From: Planctomycetia bacterium
GTDB lineage: Bacteria; Planctomycetota; Planctomycetia; Gemmatales; HRBIN36
Length of the DNA stretch: 64,000 nucleotides
Assembly: GCA_016795155.1 (NCBI GenBank)
Contig: JAEUIE010000005.1
Coordinates: forward strand, 1 to 64,000
Direction: 5' to 3'
Under the pieces are notes generated by a model. It saw nothing but the letters and a program-made list of their open reading frames with translations, did not search any database and was not told the origin of the DNA. This document shows, one piece after another, positions 32,080 through 38,145 of the stretch. The translations under genes and the position numbers were made by a program. The first letter of the stretch is position 1. Every line of letters begins with the position of its first letter.

Positions 32080-32529
32080 ATGAAGCGTTTGTACGTAGGC
32101 AATTTGCCCTACCAGATGACCGATGCAGAATTGAACGAATTGTTCGCTGCTTATGGAGCCGTCGAATCGGCTCAAGTAATTGTTGATCGAGAAACAGGCC
32201 GTTCCAAAGGGTTCGGTTTTGTTCAAATGGGTAACCCTACGGAAGCTGACGCTGCAACGCAAGCCTTGAATGGCCAGCAATTCAAAGGCCGTCCTCTCAC
32301 TGTGAACGAAGCCCGTCCGAAATCAGAATTCGGTGGTGGCGGCGGTGGTGGTGGTGGCGGCGGTCGCGGTGGCTACGGTGGTGGTGGCGGCGGTCGCGGT
32401 GGCTACGGTGGCGGCGGCGGTGGTCGCGGCGGCTACGGTGGTGGCGGCGGCGGCGGTCGAGGTGGCCGAGGCGGTTACGGCGGCGGTGGCCGCGGTGGCG
32501 ACTACGGTGGCGGCGACGGCGGCTACTAA
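32080..32529 (+). CDS. Glycine-rich RRM RNA-binding protein
   Basis: The 149-residue product has one RRM (residues 1-80) with RNP2 LYVGNL and RNP1 KGFGFVQM, followed by a tail of nearly perfect GGGGGGRGGYG-type repeats. It resembles the cold-induced Rbp proteins of cyanobacteria and other bacteria, thought to bind mRNA. The tail is coded by GGT/GGC repeats and is likely to vary in length between strains. A strong promoter and long leader precede it, a strong terminator follows. Confidence 0.9.
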   Translation: MKRLYVGNLPYQMTDAELNELFAAYGAVESAQVIVDRETGRSKGFGFVQMGNPTEADAATQALNGQQFKGRPLTVNEARPKSEFGGGGGGGGGGGRGGYGGGGGGRGGYGGGGGGRGGYGGGGGGGRGGRGGYGGGGRGGDYGGGDGGY

Positions 32530-32550
32530 TCTACTCAGCATTTAATTCAA

Positions 32551-32588
32551 ACAACCCTCGTGACACATCACGAGGGTTGTTCTTTTTA
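32551..32588. terminator. Terminator between the RRM gene and the DUF418 gene
   Basis: A perfect 13-bp stem (ACAACCCTCGTGA with its complement) closes a CACA loop and is followed by TCTTTTTA on the plus strand. The two genes converge here, so it may also stop the opposite transcript. Confidence 0.85.
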
Positions 32589-33887
32589 TCGTCGCATCGG
32601 TTGCAGTTTCCAATAGGTCAACGATCGCCAGACCCATTCGCACGGGCCGAAATGGAAATGCTTGAGCCAGATCGGACTGATGAATAACTGGAAACACCAG
32701 ATGGCAATTACCAGAAGAAAGAGTTGATACCGTTGCCATAAGCCAAACTGTGCCAGGCCCCAGCCGTGAAAGATAGCGGTGCAGATCAGCGTTTGGGACA
32801 AATAGTTGGTGAAGGCCATTCGGCCAACTGCTGCAAGGCGTGATTGAACAGCAGGCAACCATCGTTGCTTCACAGCCAGCATGATGACAGCAAAGTAGCC
32901 TGCTGCCATCAGCAGGGAACCGTAGTAGTCGTACGTGGCCATGGTTCGAATCATGTCCGGCATTTCTTTGGTCTGCAAATGTTGCCAGATTCCCAGGCAG
33001 GTGAGCAGTATCCCAAGCCCCAGACCAATCATGGCCCAGCGCTGATAACGTTGATTCGGCCAGGAACGGTCAAATGCCTGTAGTTGGTAAAGAGCGATGC
33101 CACAGAGCATCAGACCGGTGATGCGCCACAAGACAAACGTCAACAGGCCAAAAATCTGGAATTGAGCGGTTGAAGGCGCCCGCAGCCTTAACATCTCGAC
33201 AAACCCTGCATCACGAACCTGTTTGGATTTCTCTTCCACCATGGCAGGAGTTGGATTGAAGTTTTCCTTCATTTTTCTGATATCTTCCGTCTCCTTCACC
33301 AATTCGGGATGAGATTCCACATAGCTGAACGAGAAGTCAAGAAGTAATGATGCGCCGACGAGAATCAATGAGCCTAAAAGGATCAGGCTCAGACCGAGAA
33401 TCAACTGGTTTCGCGGTTTCCATCTCCGAAACCAATAGACCAGCATTCCCATCAAGGCATAGTAGGTCAGGATATCACCATACCAGAAAACGTAAGCATG
33501 AATGAGTCCGATGATGAGCAGCCAGAATACCCGGCGGAAAAATAACCCACGGCCCGAACCAGGCTTGCCACGACGTTCTTCAACCCGGCTTACCTGAAGA
33601 AAAAGTCCGACGCCAAAGAGCATCGAGAAAAGGGTGACCATCTTGCCTTCGAAGATGACGTGCGTCAAAAGCCAGGTGATAAAATTGATGCCGGTAAAAC
33701 CACCGGCGATGGCAGGATTCTGGTAAGCAGCTTCAACGTGCGCGAAGGCAATGATGTTGACAGGCAGAATACCTAGCAGTGCAAACCCTCGCAGTACATC
33801 GATGGCGTGGATCCGTTCCTGATCCTGTACCGGTTGAGCCGAAATTGGCTTGGCAGGTTCCAAAGACTCTGGTATCTCCTGGCTCAT
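32586..33887 (-). CDS. DUF418 polytopic membrane protein, coupled to the RT gene
   Basis: The 433-residue product has about ten membrane helices and the DUF418/YeiB signatures: RIHAIDVLRGFALLGILPVN near the N-terminus, LFSMLFGVGLFLQ, and in the C-terminal half AVGRMAFTNYLSQTLIC and GPCEWVWRSLTYW. The family is related to membrane acyltransferases but has no firm activity. Its ATG lies one base after the stop of the reverse transcriptase gene, with AGGAAA about 8 bases upstream inside that gene. Such coupling suggests they act together. Alternatively the RT unit has inserted upstream of an ordinary housekeeping gene. Confidence 0.87.
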   Translation of the reverse strand: MSQEIPESLEPAKPISAQPVQDQERIHAIDVLRGFALLGILPVNIIAFAHVEAAYQNPAIAGGFTGINFITWLLTHVIFEGKMVTLFSMLFGVGLFLQVSRVEERRGKPGSGRGLFFRRVFWLLIIGLIHAYVFWYGDILTYYALMGMLVYWFRRWKPRNQLILGLSLILLGSLILVGASLLLDFSFSYVESHPELVKETEDIRKMKENFNPTPAMVEEKSKQVRDAGFVEMLRLRAPSTAQFQIFGLLTFVLWRITGLMLCGIALYQLQAFDRSWPNQRYQRWAMIGLGLGILLTCLGIWQHLQTKEMPDMIRTMATYDYYGSLLMAAGYFAVIMLAVKQRWLPAVQSRLAAVGRMAFTNYLSQTLICTAIFHGWGLAQFGLWQRYQLFLLVIAIWCFQLFISPIWLKHFHFGPCEWVWRSLTYWKLQPMRR

Positions 33888-33888
33888 A

Positions 33889-34845
33889 TCAATTTCCTGT
33901 CGATTGAGTTTGAATCATTTGCTGGTAGGCTTTCCATCCAGCCAGTTGTTCGCGAGTTAGTGTGGCGGATTTACCAGTGTTGAGGTGATGTTCGACGGAA
34001 CGCAACCAGCGACGGGTTGATCGGGGGAGATGTACTTTGCGGTTGACCACCAGGCCTGTAACCACTTGCCTGTTATGTTGGCGCATGACATTCAACTTGG
34101 TTCTGTTGATGGTGTAGCCTGATTCGAACAGAATGCTGACAACACGCCGGATGACGCCACGAATGAACCGACGGTTATCCTGTTCGAATGAAAAGATGAG
34201 ATCATCGGCATAGCGGCTATAGATGGCTTGGCTTTTCCCGGCTAATCCGGCCAGGCGTGCATCCATACGGTAGTTGACGAGGTTGCTGAGTATAGGGCTG
34301 GTTGGGGCTCCCTGTGGGAGGCGATTTTTTCGTGTGCAAATGGCTTGAATAAGCGAAGCGGCTTCATGATTCCAGCCAATCCGGCGAAAGAAATCGTAAA
34401 CCTGATTTCCAGATGTAGAGTGGAAGAAATCTTTGATATCTATTCTGACCACAACCGCTTTGCCAACATGAAGCCTGGCGTGAGTGCAGTTTGATTGTCC
34501 TCGACGGAAGCCTTTGCAGGCTGAATGAACTGCAAGTTTGGCAAATACTTTTCGCAACAGCAGCTTTTGCAACAGCTTCAATCTGGGATTGGGGGAATAC
34601 AGCATTCTGGGTTTGCCAGAACGCTTGGGAATCTTGTGCCACCAGTAACCAAGGGGAATGAGATGTGGTGCCAGTAAATTGGTATCCCTCGGATTGAACC
34701 CCCTTACCGTGTAGATCAGATTGATTTCATTCAGATTCAGTCGACGAAGCAGTTCTTTTTTGTCCCAACGTGGCTCTGGATATTTGAAAACAGAGGGTGG
34801 AAGCGTTCGCCGGAAGAGCTTGGAAATCCAGTTGAATAGACCCAT
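33889..34845 (-). CDS. Retron-type reverse transcriptase
   Basis: The 318-residue length fits retron RTs. Motifs follow in order: KGFRRGQSNCTHARLHVGK, the first catalytic Asp in VVRIDIKDFF, LPQGAPTSPILSNL (motif 4), YSRYADDLIFS with the YADD active site near residue 212, NRTKLNVM, and VVTGLVVN (the VTG signature of retron RTs). No maturase or endonuclease domain is present, which argues against a group II intron. Upstream lies a hairpin-dense non-coding region expected for an msr-msd RNA. ATG 34845 is preceded by TTGGAG. The downstream DUF418 gene is translationally coupled. Confidence 0.85.
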   Translation of the reverse strand: MGLFNWISKLFRRTLPPSVFKYPEPRWDKKELLRRLNLNEINLIYTVRGFNPRDTNLLAPHLIPLGYWWHKIPKRSGKPRMLYSPNPRLKLLQKLLLRKVFAKLAVHSACKGFRRGQSNCTHARLHVGKAVVVRIDIKDFFHSTSGNQVYDFFRRIGWNHEAASLIQAICTRKNRLPQGAPTSPILSNLVNYRMDARLAGLAGKSQAIYSRYADDLIFSFEQDNRRFIRGVIRRVVSILFESGYTINRTKLNVMRQHNRQVVTGLVVNRKVHLPRSTRRWLRSVEHHLNTGKSATLTREQLAGWKAYQQMIQTQSTGN

Positions 34846-34859
34846 GGAAACTCCAAATG

Positions 34860-35048
34860 AAATAGCAGCTCTTGCGAGCTGCTATTTGCCTTGCATAGGT
34901 CAATCTGGCCATATCGCATATGGCCAGTTGTCCTATCCCGCAGTAGCCGATTTTCCAGGCTACCTGAAACAACCCGGCTGACGAAACATCAGCCTATGCC
35001 ACTCCAGTCAAGGGGCATCAAGCCAAGGCAATGGCATCCTAACGGATG
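34860..35048 (-). ncRNA. Candidate retron msr-msd RNA
   Basis: The stretch just upstream of the RT is packed with hairpins, given in plus coordinates: 12-bp perfect stem with GCAA loop (34860-34887), 10-bp perfect stem (34905-34927), 6-bp stem (34943-34963), 6-8-bp stem with TTT-centred loop (34976-34994) and a 5-bp stem (35035-35048). Two distant pairings could be the a1/a2 type closing stem: 34886-34893 with 35024-35031 (8 bp) and 34893-34899 with 34993-34999 (7 bp). No ORF is likely. The exact ends and the branching guanosine cannot be fixed by eye. Confidence 0.6.
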
Positions 35049-35133
35049 TTTCGGCATGGTAAAAGCAAAAACCCGACTTTCAACCGTTATGACCAGATGT
35101 AGACCATGAAGACCTTATGAGAACTGAAAACTG

Positions 35134-35165
35134 AATGGTTTATTTTTCACTTTCAATGGTTTATT
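35134..35165. promoter_or_regulatory. Two 11-bp direct repeats at 21-bp spacing
   Basis: AATGGTTTATT occurs at 35134-35144 and 35155-35165, two helical turns apart, in the space shared by the divergent RT and peptidase genes. This looks like an operator for a regulator binding one face of the DNA. Confidence 0.45.
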
Positions 35166-35241
35166 CTGTCATCATCCTGCTGCGTACCTACCGGCATAAC
35201 ATTCCAGTGAAATCGTCAGGCGTCTTCTGAGAGGTCCCAAC

Positions 35242-38145
35242 ATGTTTTCGCGAATGATTCTTTCCCGCACACTGTGGGGGATTGGTCTTGCAGTTATTTG
35301 TGTATCAGTTCAGGCTGCAGAGCCGGAGAGAGTCAATAAAGCCAATTATCCCAATGCTCAGAAGTTCAGCAGAGACTTCATTCAGCAGTTCAGCTATGAC
35401 ACCAGTGTGACACCGAACTGGATAGGCAAGACGGATAACTTCTGGTACGTCTATCGCACGAGCAAGGGCACCAGCTATTGGAAAGTGTATCCGGCCAATA
35501 AAAGCAAGGAAGCTCTTTTCGATCATACGAAACTGGCCGCAGCCTTGTCTGAAGTGGCCAAGAAACCTATCGAGGCTCATGGCTTGTCGTTGAGCCGCGT
35601 CTCCTTGACTGATGATGGTGCGAAGCTGAAATTCGTGTTTGATGAGTTTCAATACGAGTATGAAATCGTAGCGAATAAATTAACCAAGGGGTCACGTGCT
35701 CCGCGAGCGCCACAAGGTGGGAATATTCCCGGTCTGTCACAGGAAGAACAACAGCGGCGTCAGGAATTGGTGGAAAGGTTCCGCCAGCAACAGGAACAGC
35801 AGCAACAACAAGATCAGCAACAGCAGACACAGGGGCAAACGACGGAACCTGCCAGGCCTAACTTTGATTATCGGAACTTCTCCCCCGACAAGAAACATTA
35901 TGTGTATGCCTACAAGCACAATATTTACGTGTCGGAATCTGAAAAGGAAAAGGATGCCATCCAGCTATCCAAGGATGGTGAAGAGGATTACACCTTTGCA
36001 GGTGGCTTTGGCGGATTTGGTGGAGGCGGTGGACGAGGAGGCGCTGAGACAAGGCCAGTCGATCCTGAACGAAAAAGCAGAGTGAATGTTACTTGGACAC
36101 CTGATTCCAAGGCGTTTTATGTCACCAGGAATGATTCCCGCGGTGTGCAGGAACTCTTTCTGGTTGATTCGATTGCCATGCCTCGCCCCAAGCTGGAAAA
36201 GTACAAATACCCCATGCCGGGTGAAGATAAGATCAGGCGGGTTCAGTTGTATTATGTGAATCTTGACGCCAAGAAACTGGAGCAGGTTACACCACGATTC
36301 AAGGATGAGCGCTATTTCAACATTCACTGGAGCAAGAAGAACAACGAACTCCGGTTTGTACGTCGAGACCGTCTGCAGCGGAATATCGAATTCTGCACAC
36401 TCGATGTGAAAACGGGCAAATGCAAATGCCTGTTTGAGGAGGGACTTGATAACGGTAACATTGAATTCCAGAATGTGCGATACCTGGATGACACTGATGA
36501 AATGATCTGGTGGTCAGAACGATCAGGCTGGGGGCATTTCTACCTGTACGACACCAATGGCACGCTGAAAAATGCCATTACCAGCGGGCCATATCGTGCC
36601 AGTTCCATAGTTGCAGTCGATTCCAAGAATCGCACGCTCTACTTCCGAGGAAACGCACGAGAAGCTGGAGAGAATGTCTATTACCAGCACCTCTACTCAG
36701 TCAGATTAGATGGATCCGGATTGAGATTACTGGATCCAGGCAATGCCAACCATAATTCAATCCTTTCGAGTACCTACCAGGTTCTCGTCGATAATTCTTC
36801 CCGGATCGATCAGGTTCCGACTTCGGTACTGCGTGATTCTTCCGGTGCGAAGATTATGGATCTGGAAACCTGTGATGTCAGCCGACTGAAAGAAACCGGC
36901 TGGAAACTGCCTACTACGTTTGTTGTGAAGGCAGCAGACGGCGTTACCGATCTCTATGGCAACATGTGGACACCATTTGACCTCGATCCCAAAAAGAAGT
37001 ACCCCATTATCGCCCATGTTTATCCCGGGCCACAGACCGAAGGTGTAACCCATACCTACTCTGCCTTCAGCAGTAACATGCAGATGGCTCAGTTAGGTTT
37101 CATCGTCATACAAGTTGGCCATCGTGGCGGCACGCCGACACGTTCCAAGGCCTATCACCGCTACGGCTATTTCAACCTGCGTGATTATGCATTGGAAGAC
37201 AAGAAATCAGCCATCGAACAATTGGCATTGAAGTATCCGTTTATGGATATCGATCGAGTGGGTATTTATGGTCATTCCGGCGGTGGATTCATGTCCGCTG
37301 CTGCCATGCTGCAGAAGCCTTACAACGAGTTCTTCAAGGCAGCGGTCGCTTCAGCCGGTAATCATGATAACAACATTTACAATGATAACTGGTCGGAGCG
37401 TTATCATGGCATGAAGGAAGTGCCCGCAGACCAGGCCGATACCAAGACAGCTGCAACTCAACAGCAGGATGCTGGCGATGTACAGCGCGGTGCTGGCCAG
37501 CGTCGTCGTCGACCTCCCGAAGCAGGTGAGTTCAGTGAGGTGGAATACGATCTCGAAAATGAACCTCAGGATGTTGGCACAAAGGATCGACAGGAGAAGC
37601 TGGATGCCATCAAGAAGGAAGTGGCAGAGATTGCCTCGAAGATGGCAAATGCCAAAGGCGATGAACTGACCAGCCTTGAGAAACAACTCGCTGATGCAAA
37701 AGAAAAACTCGGAAAACTGACCACGGATGCCAAAACAACTGAAACCAGGAAGGAAGTCGAAACCAAAACAGGCGAAGTGAAAAGAGAAACAGACAAGACT
37801 GATTCCAAGAAGGATGAGGAGAAAAAGAAAGAAGAAGAAAAGAAAATGAAGTTCAGCATTGCTGTTCCCACCAATGCTGAGTTGGCTGCCAATCTGAAAG
37901 GTGCATTGTTGCTGGTACATGGTGAAATTGACAACAATGTTCACCCTGCCAACACGATGCGACTGGTAGATGCCCTCGTGAAAGCGAATAAGCGTTTTGA
38001 CATGCTCATTCTACCTGGCCAGCGGCATGGCTTTGGCACCTCGCAGGCTTATTTCAACCAAAGGATGTGGGATTTCTTCTCCGATCATCTGATCGGAGAC
38101 AGGCCTGCTGGAGCTGACATTAACGAGAAGATAAACGGCAAATAG
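35242..38145 (+). CDS. Secreted S9 prolyl-oligopeptidase/DPP IV-like peptidase
   Basis: The 967-residue product has a signal peptide (cleavage after VQA) and an N-terminal propeller region with a Q-rich insertion (about 175-205) and a Gly-rich loop (about 254-268). The hydrolase domain has Ser679 in GHSGGGF, Asp897 in HGEIDNNV and His929 in GQRHGF, a complete triad. Between Ser and Asp, at about 727-870, lies an unusual insertion: a basic RRRRPP patch followed by a Lys/Glu coiled coil. Family members remove dipeptides or cut small peptides. The start ATG at 35242 follows GAGAGG. Confidence 0.88.
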   Translation: MFSRMILSRTLWGIGLAVICVSVQAAEPERVNKANYPNAQKFSRDFIQQFSYDTSVTPNWIGKTDNFWYVYRTSKGTSYWKVYPANKSKEALFDHTKLAAALSEVAKKPIEAHGLSLSRVSLTDDGAKLKFVFDEFQYEYEIVANKLTKGSRAPRAPQGGNIPGLSQEEQQRRQELVERFRQQQEQQQQQDQQQQTQGQTTEPARPNFDYRNFSPDKKHYVYAYKHNIYVSESEKEKDAIQLSKDGEEDYTFAGGFGGFGGGGGRGGAETRPVDPERKSRVNVTWTPDSKAFYVTRNDSRGVQELFLVDSIAMPRPKLEKYKYPMPGEDKIRRVQLYYVNLDAKKLEQVTPRFKDERYFNIHWSKKNNELRFVRRDRLQRNIEFCTLDVKTGKCKCLFEEGLDNGNIEFQNVRYLDDTDEMIWWSERSGWGHFYLYDTNGTLKNAITSGPYRASSIVAVDSKNRTLYFRGNAREAGENVYYQHLYSVRLDGSGLRLLDPGNANHNSILSSTYQVLVDNSSRIDQVPTSVLRDSSGAKIMDLETCDVSRLKETGWKLPTTFVVKAADGVTDLYGNMWTPFDLDPKKKYPIIAHVYPGPQTEGVTHTYSAFSSNMQMAQLGFIVIQVGHRGGTPTRSKAYHRYGYFNLRDYALEDKKSAIEQLALKYPFMDIDRVGIYGHSGGGFMSAAAMLQKPYNEFFKAAVASAGNHDNNIYNDNWSERYHGMKEVPADQADTKTAATQQQDAGDVQRGAGQRRRRPPEAGEFSEVEYDLENEPQDVGTKDRQEKLDAIKKEVAEIASKMANAKGDELTSLEKQLADAKEKLGKLTTDAKTTETRKEVETKTGEVKRETDKTDSKKDEEKKKEEEKKMKFSIAVPTNAELAANLKGALLLVHGEIDNNVHPANTMRLVDALVKANKRFDMLILPGQRHGFGTSQAYFNQRMWDFFSDHLIGDRPAGADINEKINGK

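Follow-up and report, generated by a model that had tools for sequence, protein, structure and literature searches.

The window, a 64,000-nucleotide stretch of a Planctomycetia bacterium contig, carries on its minus strand a gene for a retron-type reverse transcriptase (RT) followed by a gene for a DUF418 membrane protein. The two genes and their principal features are as follows.

33889-34845, minus strand: retron-type RT, 318 aa, ATG start
34810-34842, minus strand: amphipathic helix at the RT N terminus (residues 2-12, GLFNWISKLFR), a presumed membrane contact (from the hydrophobic moment)
34201-34212, minus strand: catalytic YADD (within the invariant column set of the RT alignment)
33885-33898, minus strand: RT stop/DUF418 start junction with an AGGA Shine-Dalgarno-like site (from sequence)
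32586-33887, minus strand: DUF418/YeiB-like membrane protein, 433 aa, ATG start, a neighbour probably outside the retron

A sequence-only reading of this DNA had described the RT stop codon as one base from the DUF418 start codon, with the DUF418 ribosome site inside the RT gene, and had proposed DUF418 as the effector of a new retron type. Both structural details were confirmed. At the junction (minus strand, ...CGACAGGAAATTGATATGAGC...), the RT stop TGA occupies 33891-33889 and is separated by the single base 33888 from the DUF418 ATG at 33887-33885, while the Shine-Dalgarno-like AGGA at 33898-33895 falls within the RT gene. No terminator-like site was found at the RT/DUF418 junction. The 1-nt junction and the internal Shine-Dalgarno-like site make co-expression of DUF418 with the RT likely, so a local functional link between the two is possible. 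Window 32080-32529, adjoining the DUF418 gene, encodes an RNA-binding protein of the RRM type whose tail is long and rich in glycine.

The RT matched RVT_1 (1e-23) and, among PADLOC retron RT models, scored best against RT_XIII (1e-75; RT_II-A, 2e-71). RT_XIII also matched all 28 RTs scanned from the planctomycete clade described below, although II-A, III-A and others are close behind it in score for the window RT. DRT and group II models matched it weakly. The nearest solved relative and best fold match was the RT of Ec86 (Retron-Eco1), both by sequence profile (5e-61) and by Foldseek (2.6e-23) with an AlphaFold model of pLDDT 88.5. The YADD core is intact, and residues 262-264 at the C terminus form the VTG with which region Y begins in retrons (PMC6868368). 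Region X reads THARLH, with H replacing the N of NAxxH, where most relatives have NA..H. Since NAxxH is found in 14 of 16 validated retrons, with Ec48 and Mx65 also lacking that asparagine (PMC6868368), the motif is not strictly defining. The window RT also lacks the FFP proline that most relatives keep and has an extra loop (residues 43-60), poorly predicted in the model. A second, unrelated RT with a 518-aa frame lies elsewhere in the same genome (G000:C53:209679-210221, L003), and three genomes of genus g6 in the same order (G009, G020 and G025) hold 8-9 retron-type RT matches each, from other RT clades.

Directly upstream of the RT we found a conserved, covarying msr-like RNA that the sequence-only reading had missed, and which, together with the Ec86 relationship and the intact YADD and VTG, strengthens the retron half of its claim. 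The elements of this RNA and its surroundings are listed below.

35056-35083, minus strand: sigma-70-like promoter preceding the ncRNA, TTGAAA-16-TACCAT (consensus matched at 9 of 12 positions)
~34886-35033, minus strand: retron-type ncRNA (msr-msd), predicted extent (from CM and fold)
35024-35031, minus strand: a1 arm TTGCCTTG, paired with a2 in 18 aligned ncRNAs
34996-35018, minus strand: msr stem-loop SL1 (ATGCC...GGCAT), helix 2 of the 18-ncRNA alignment
34976-34994, minus strand: msr stem-loop SL2, GGCTGATG-TTT-CGTCAGCC, 8-bp stem with UUU loop, presumed RT-binding hairpin (from the alignment)
34905-34927, minus strand: msd-type hairpin CTGGCCATAT-GCG-ATATGGCCAG, a perfect 10-bp inverted repeat, predicted in the fold
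34886-34893, minus strand: a2 arm CAAGGCAA, partner of a1
34860-34887, minus strand: perfect 12-bp hairpin AAATAGCAGCTC-GCAA-GAGCTGCTATTT between a2 and the RT start (from sequence)

The fold of 34880-35034 has a free energy of -67.1 kcal/mol (z = -4.65), and a CM built from the msr module (R1) gave a 60.5-bit match at 35033-34953 that was its sole match in the entire genome. No known RNA family was recognized for the ncRNA; the sole Rfam match in the window was an unrelated tRNA. The promoter is the only promoter-like site in 32400-35300, a weak signal alone (region shuffles give 2.8); across the clade, such a site about 40 nt ahead of the ncRNA scores at least 9 at 21 of 53 loci versus 4% of shuffles. 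By analogy with Ec86, G35023, next after a1 in the context TTGGC, is the presumed priming guanosine. TTGG(C) is conserved at this position, with the G present and AGC absent, and the msd is variable across the clade. The 12-bp hairpin has no T-run behind it. A first a1/a2 candidate, GCATAGG/CCTATGC, was dropped when the alignment gave TTGCCTTG/CAAGGCAA as the conserved pair.

Alignment of 18 complete RNAs resolved three helices. Pairing was kept in 93% of cells in a1/a2, 90% in SL1 and 99.3% in SL2, with compensatory change at 5 of 8, 4 of 6 and 3 pairs, respectively (for example GGCTGATG/CGTCAGCC, GGCCGGCG/CGCCGGCC and GGATGATG/CGTCATCC). Overall, 94.6% of cells were paired versus 84.1 +/- 1.0% in shuffled and at most 53% in slid alignments, and double-change cells numbered 49 against 15.6. 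Of five measures of pairing, four exceeded every shuffle and slid control, and the remaining one, the number of further pair types, exceeded 484 of 500 shuffles. Unaided, RNAalifold recovered the same helices.

The RNA is also specific to one group of RTs. The SL2 hairpin recurs upstream of the closest RT relatives, and its exact 19-mer pattern is present in 4 of the 392 planctomycete genomes searched, always upstream of a clade RT. The CM matched 55 of 56 clade RT loci; because 19 of these had supplied the model, the fair count is 36 of the 37 loci unused for building. Of 23 loci carrying RTs from outside the clade and 8 other loci, it matched none. Throughout the 392 genomes there were 30 CM matches in 28 genomes, all beside a clade RT, and 28 of the 29 genomes with a clade RT were CM-positive (one weak case excepted; Fisher p 6e-42). 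In the RT tree, a branch supported at 100/99 separates the CM-positive members from the other RTs. The closest RTs on viral contigs are just 38-40% identical, and there the CM yields only SL2-sized matches with E of 0.3 or worse. An RT match follows four of these at a distance of about 300 nt, and one is the Ec86 hairpin itself. We read these matches as support for the SL2 assignment, not as clade members. Judged by its RNA and RT, the window locus is a genuine retron for which msDNA formation is predicted.

The DUF418 half of the proposal fared differently. The second protein is assigned to Pfam DUF418 (9.6e-44; 149.6 bits versus a gathering score of 23.6), and it matches a YeiB-like DUF418 model at 4.5e-53, below that model's cut-off; no solved relative was found by sequence. 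DUF418 proteins are transmembrane acyltransferases of ordinary metabolism within the TmAT superfamily, whose core is a 10-TM acyltransferase (PMC12423673), and the window protein shares with that superfamily a DUF418 match above the Pfam threshold. No connection between DUF418 and retrons was found in the literature searched. By tblastn, DUF418 stands beside the RT at 1 of 56 clade loci, that of the window. The genes identified downstream of related RTs elsewhere are unrelated and mostly housekeeping, rather than showing the constant DUF418 coupling that would have supported the claim, and seven of nine other DUF418-bearing genomes, all from relatives, lack an RT match. Two further DUF418 genes, unlinked paralogues, lie away from any RT in the window genome. 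Orphan DUF418 homologues and varied RT neighbours are in substance what the sequence-only reading had named as evidence against itself, save for its wording 'same chromosomal place', synteny not being kept in the family. The window locus itself offered no empty-site comparison, since purK and the S9 peptidase gene are on separate contigs in the nearest relative that has the two; the genus g17 locus described below took its place. With no second case among the 56 loci, DUF418 was rejected as a conserved partner.

The neighbours at clade loci all differ from one another: they encode an FmdB-type zinc ribbon, lamin-tail, DinB, redoxin, URO-D, FAD oxidase or chorismate-binding enzyme and, where convergent, an RF-1-type release factor, nitroreductase or HD protein. 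PADLOC scans of the window DUF418 protein and ten clade neighbours gave no matches, and type XIII partner genes were not found beside the RT. The absence of a conserved partner refers to DUF418 tblastn at all loci and to gene identity at about 20; several neighbours match no Pfam family, and contig ends cut some loci short. At one locus (L087, in G344), also a single case, the RT is followed at 21 nt by a gene for a DUF4011 helicase that carries an MTES_1575 nuclease domain, possibly a defence gene. Whatever gene follows, the RT 3' end is closely packed across the clade, with same-strand gaps of 9, 16, 21, 21 and 29 nt and gaps of 3, 8 and 12 nt to convergent genes. The 1-nt RT-DUF418 spacing is thus weak evidence of partnership by itself. 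In another genus, g17, the genes cysD and redoxin are adjacent without an RT in G059 and have the ncRNA and RT between them in G036 and G046, with a TATAAT-like box kept ahead of redoxin in both arrangements. As this interval exists with and without the insertion, the mobile or losable unit is the ncRNA plus RT.

The RT N termini show a further clade-wide pattern. A TM helix is predicted at the N terminus of about 32 of 54 clade RTs (hydropathy >1.8), and most of the remainder, including the window RT, have an MGLF-like amphipathic start whose moment is high relative to shuffles in most cases. For helix 2-12 of the window RT, which the AlphaFold model contains at low confidence, the hydrophobic moment is 0.77 (shuffle p 0.005). 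Most TM forms fall within one 38-member subclade, where some amphipathic forms also occur; the amphipathic forms are mostly basal. Start codons were picked by rule and single N termini may err, so the evidence is the pattern over many members. These predicted helices suggest membrane-tethered RT-msDNA complexes. The window retron is a deep-branching member of a widespread planctomycete clade of RTs with a membrane-seeking start helix.

We conclude, with a probability of roughly 0.75, that the locus is a solo retron composed of a promoter, an msr-msd RNA and an RT, with no dedicated effector gene and with DUF418 as a chance neighbour. In such a retron, the ncRNA would be transcribed from its own promoter and its a1 and a2 arms would pair. 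Region Y at the RT C terminus would grip the UUU-loop hairpin SL2, a hairpin of the kind (8-bp stem, UUU loop) that the C-terminal fragment of RT-Ec86 binds (PMC6868368). The RT would then prime on the G after a1 and use the variable msd as template for a short branch of DNA, and its N-terminal helix would keep the resulting RT-msDNA complex at the membrane's inner face. DUF418, downstream on the same transcript, might be translated by coupling as a chance neighbour. How the complex acts is more tentative. Our preferred guess, which takes two options jointly and falls somewhat short of even odds, is that the membrane-held complex has a partner effector whose gene lies elsewhere, or that the RT membrane helix is itself the output. 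It is rather doubtful that the whole clade operates without any effector gene, with the membrane-bound RT-msDNA complex, anchored by an amphipathic and later a TM helix, serving as both sensor and output.

The sequence-only proposal can be recast as a two-protein retron, in which this lineage recruited DUF418 as an effector that is co-translated with the RT and restrained by RT-msDNA. The 1-nt junction, the Shine-Dalgarno-like site within the RT gene, the terminator-free junction, the direct adjacency of the two genes and the predicted membrane location of both proteins are what such a retron would display. Against these stand the single occurrence in 56 clade loci, the RT-free DUF418 genes in seven relatives and the unlinked paralogues in the window genome, the metabolic role of the family, the missing PADLOC match and the tight packing usual in the clade, and we hold recruitment to be improbable. 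An RT-DUF418 pairing specific to the lineage may exist in this single genome; most likely, DUF418 is a co-expressed chance neighbour and not the retron's weapon.

Slightly less probable again is decay, whereby RNA and RT persist while a drifted RT makes little or no msDNA. The altered region X, the missing FFP proline and the poorly predicted insert at 43-60 would fit such drift, but the RT frame is open, its YADD and VTG motifs are intact, its model reaches pLDDT 88.5, all ncRNA helices are intact within a strong fold, and the validated retrons Ec48 and Mx65 likewise lack the region-X asparagine. We give very little credence to an RNA-templated RT of non-retron type, DRT-like or domesticated from a group II RT, that puts the RNA to another use. 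Such an RT would accord with the lack of an effector, with msDNA that is only predicted and with the weak DRT and group II matches; retron models and Ec86 nevertheless lead by wide margins, the RNA elements follow the retron order, and the SL2 portion of the CM coincides, though just at E ~1, with the msr hairpin of Ec86 itself (L174).

Comparison with known systems places the window retron closest to Ec86. The order a1-SL1-SL2(UUU)-msd-a2 is common to both RNAs, and a1 ends in CCUUAGC in Ec86 and CCUUGGC in the window. Retrons usually prime at TAGC, CAGC or GAGC; the priming site is TAGC in Ec86 and presumably TGGC here. The window locus further differs from Ec86 by having no adjacent effector, a much shorter msd and an RT with an N-terminal amphipathic helix. 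Retrons without a clear neighbouring effector are a category noted in PMC8867640, which cites Mestre 2020. Like that category, the window clade comprises RNA and RT only; it differs in that its members form one defined clade in planctomycetes, share an msr signature particular to them and have membrane-seeking N termini on their RTs. Searches of the literature for retrons that lack an effector or come from planctomycetes gave no specific result. The clade of effector-less retrons with membrane-helix RTs appears new, and may have been listed earlier.

Retrons are described as an RNA, an RT and a toxic effector. An RNA-RT clade spread over many planctomycete families, with no effector and a membrane-seeking RT, questions this three-part rule and makes the purpose of msDNA testable free of effector confounding. 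It also strikes DUF418, a tempting false candidate, from the list of effectors. The clade msr RNA model provides a tool for finding clade members. Among the loci it matched, L095, L101 and L141, from three genomes, have a single RT preceded by two msr modules in tandem, and at L046:225-300 (-) the retron RNA (52 bits) and its RT are on opposite strands, an inverted arrangement.
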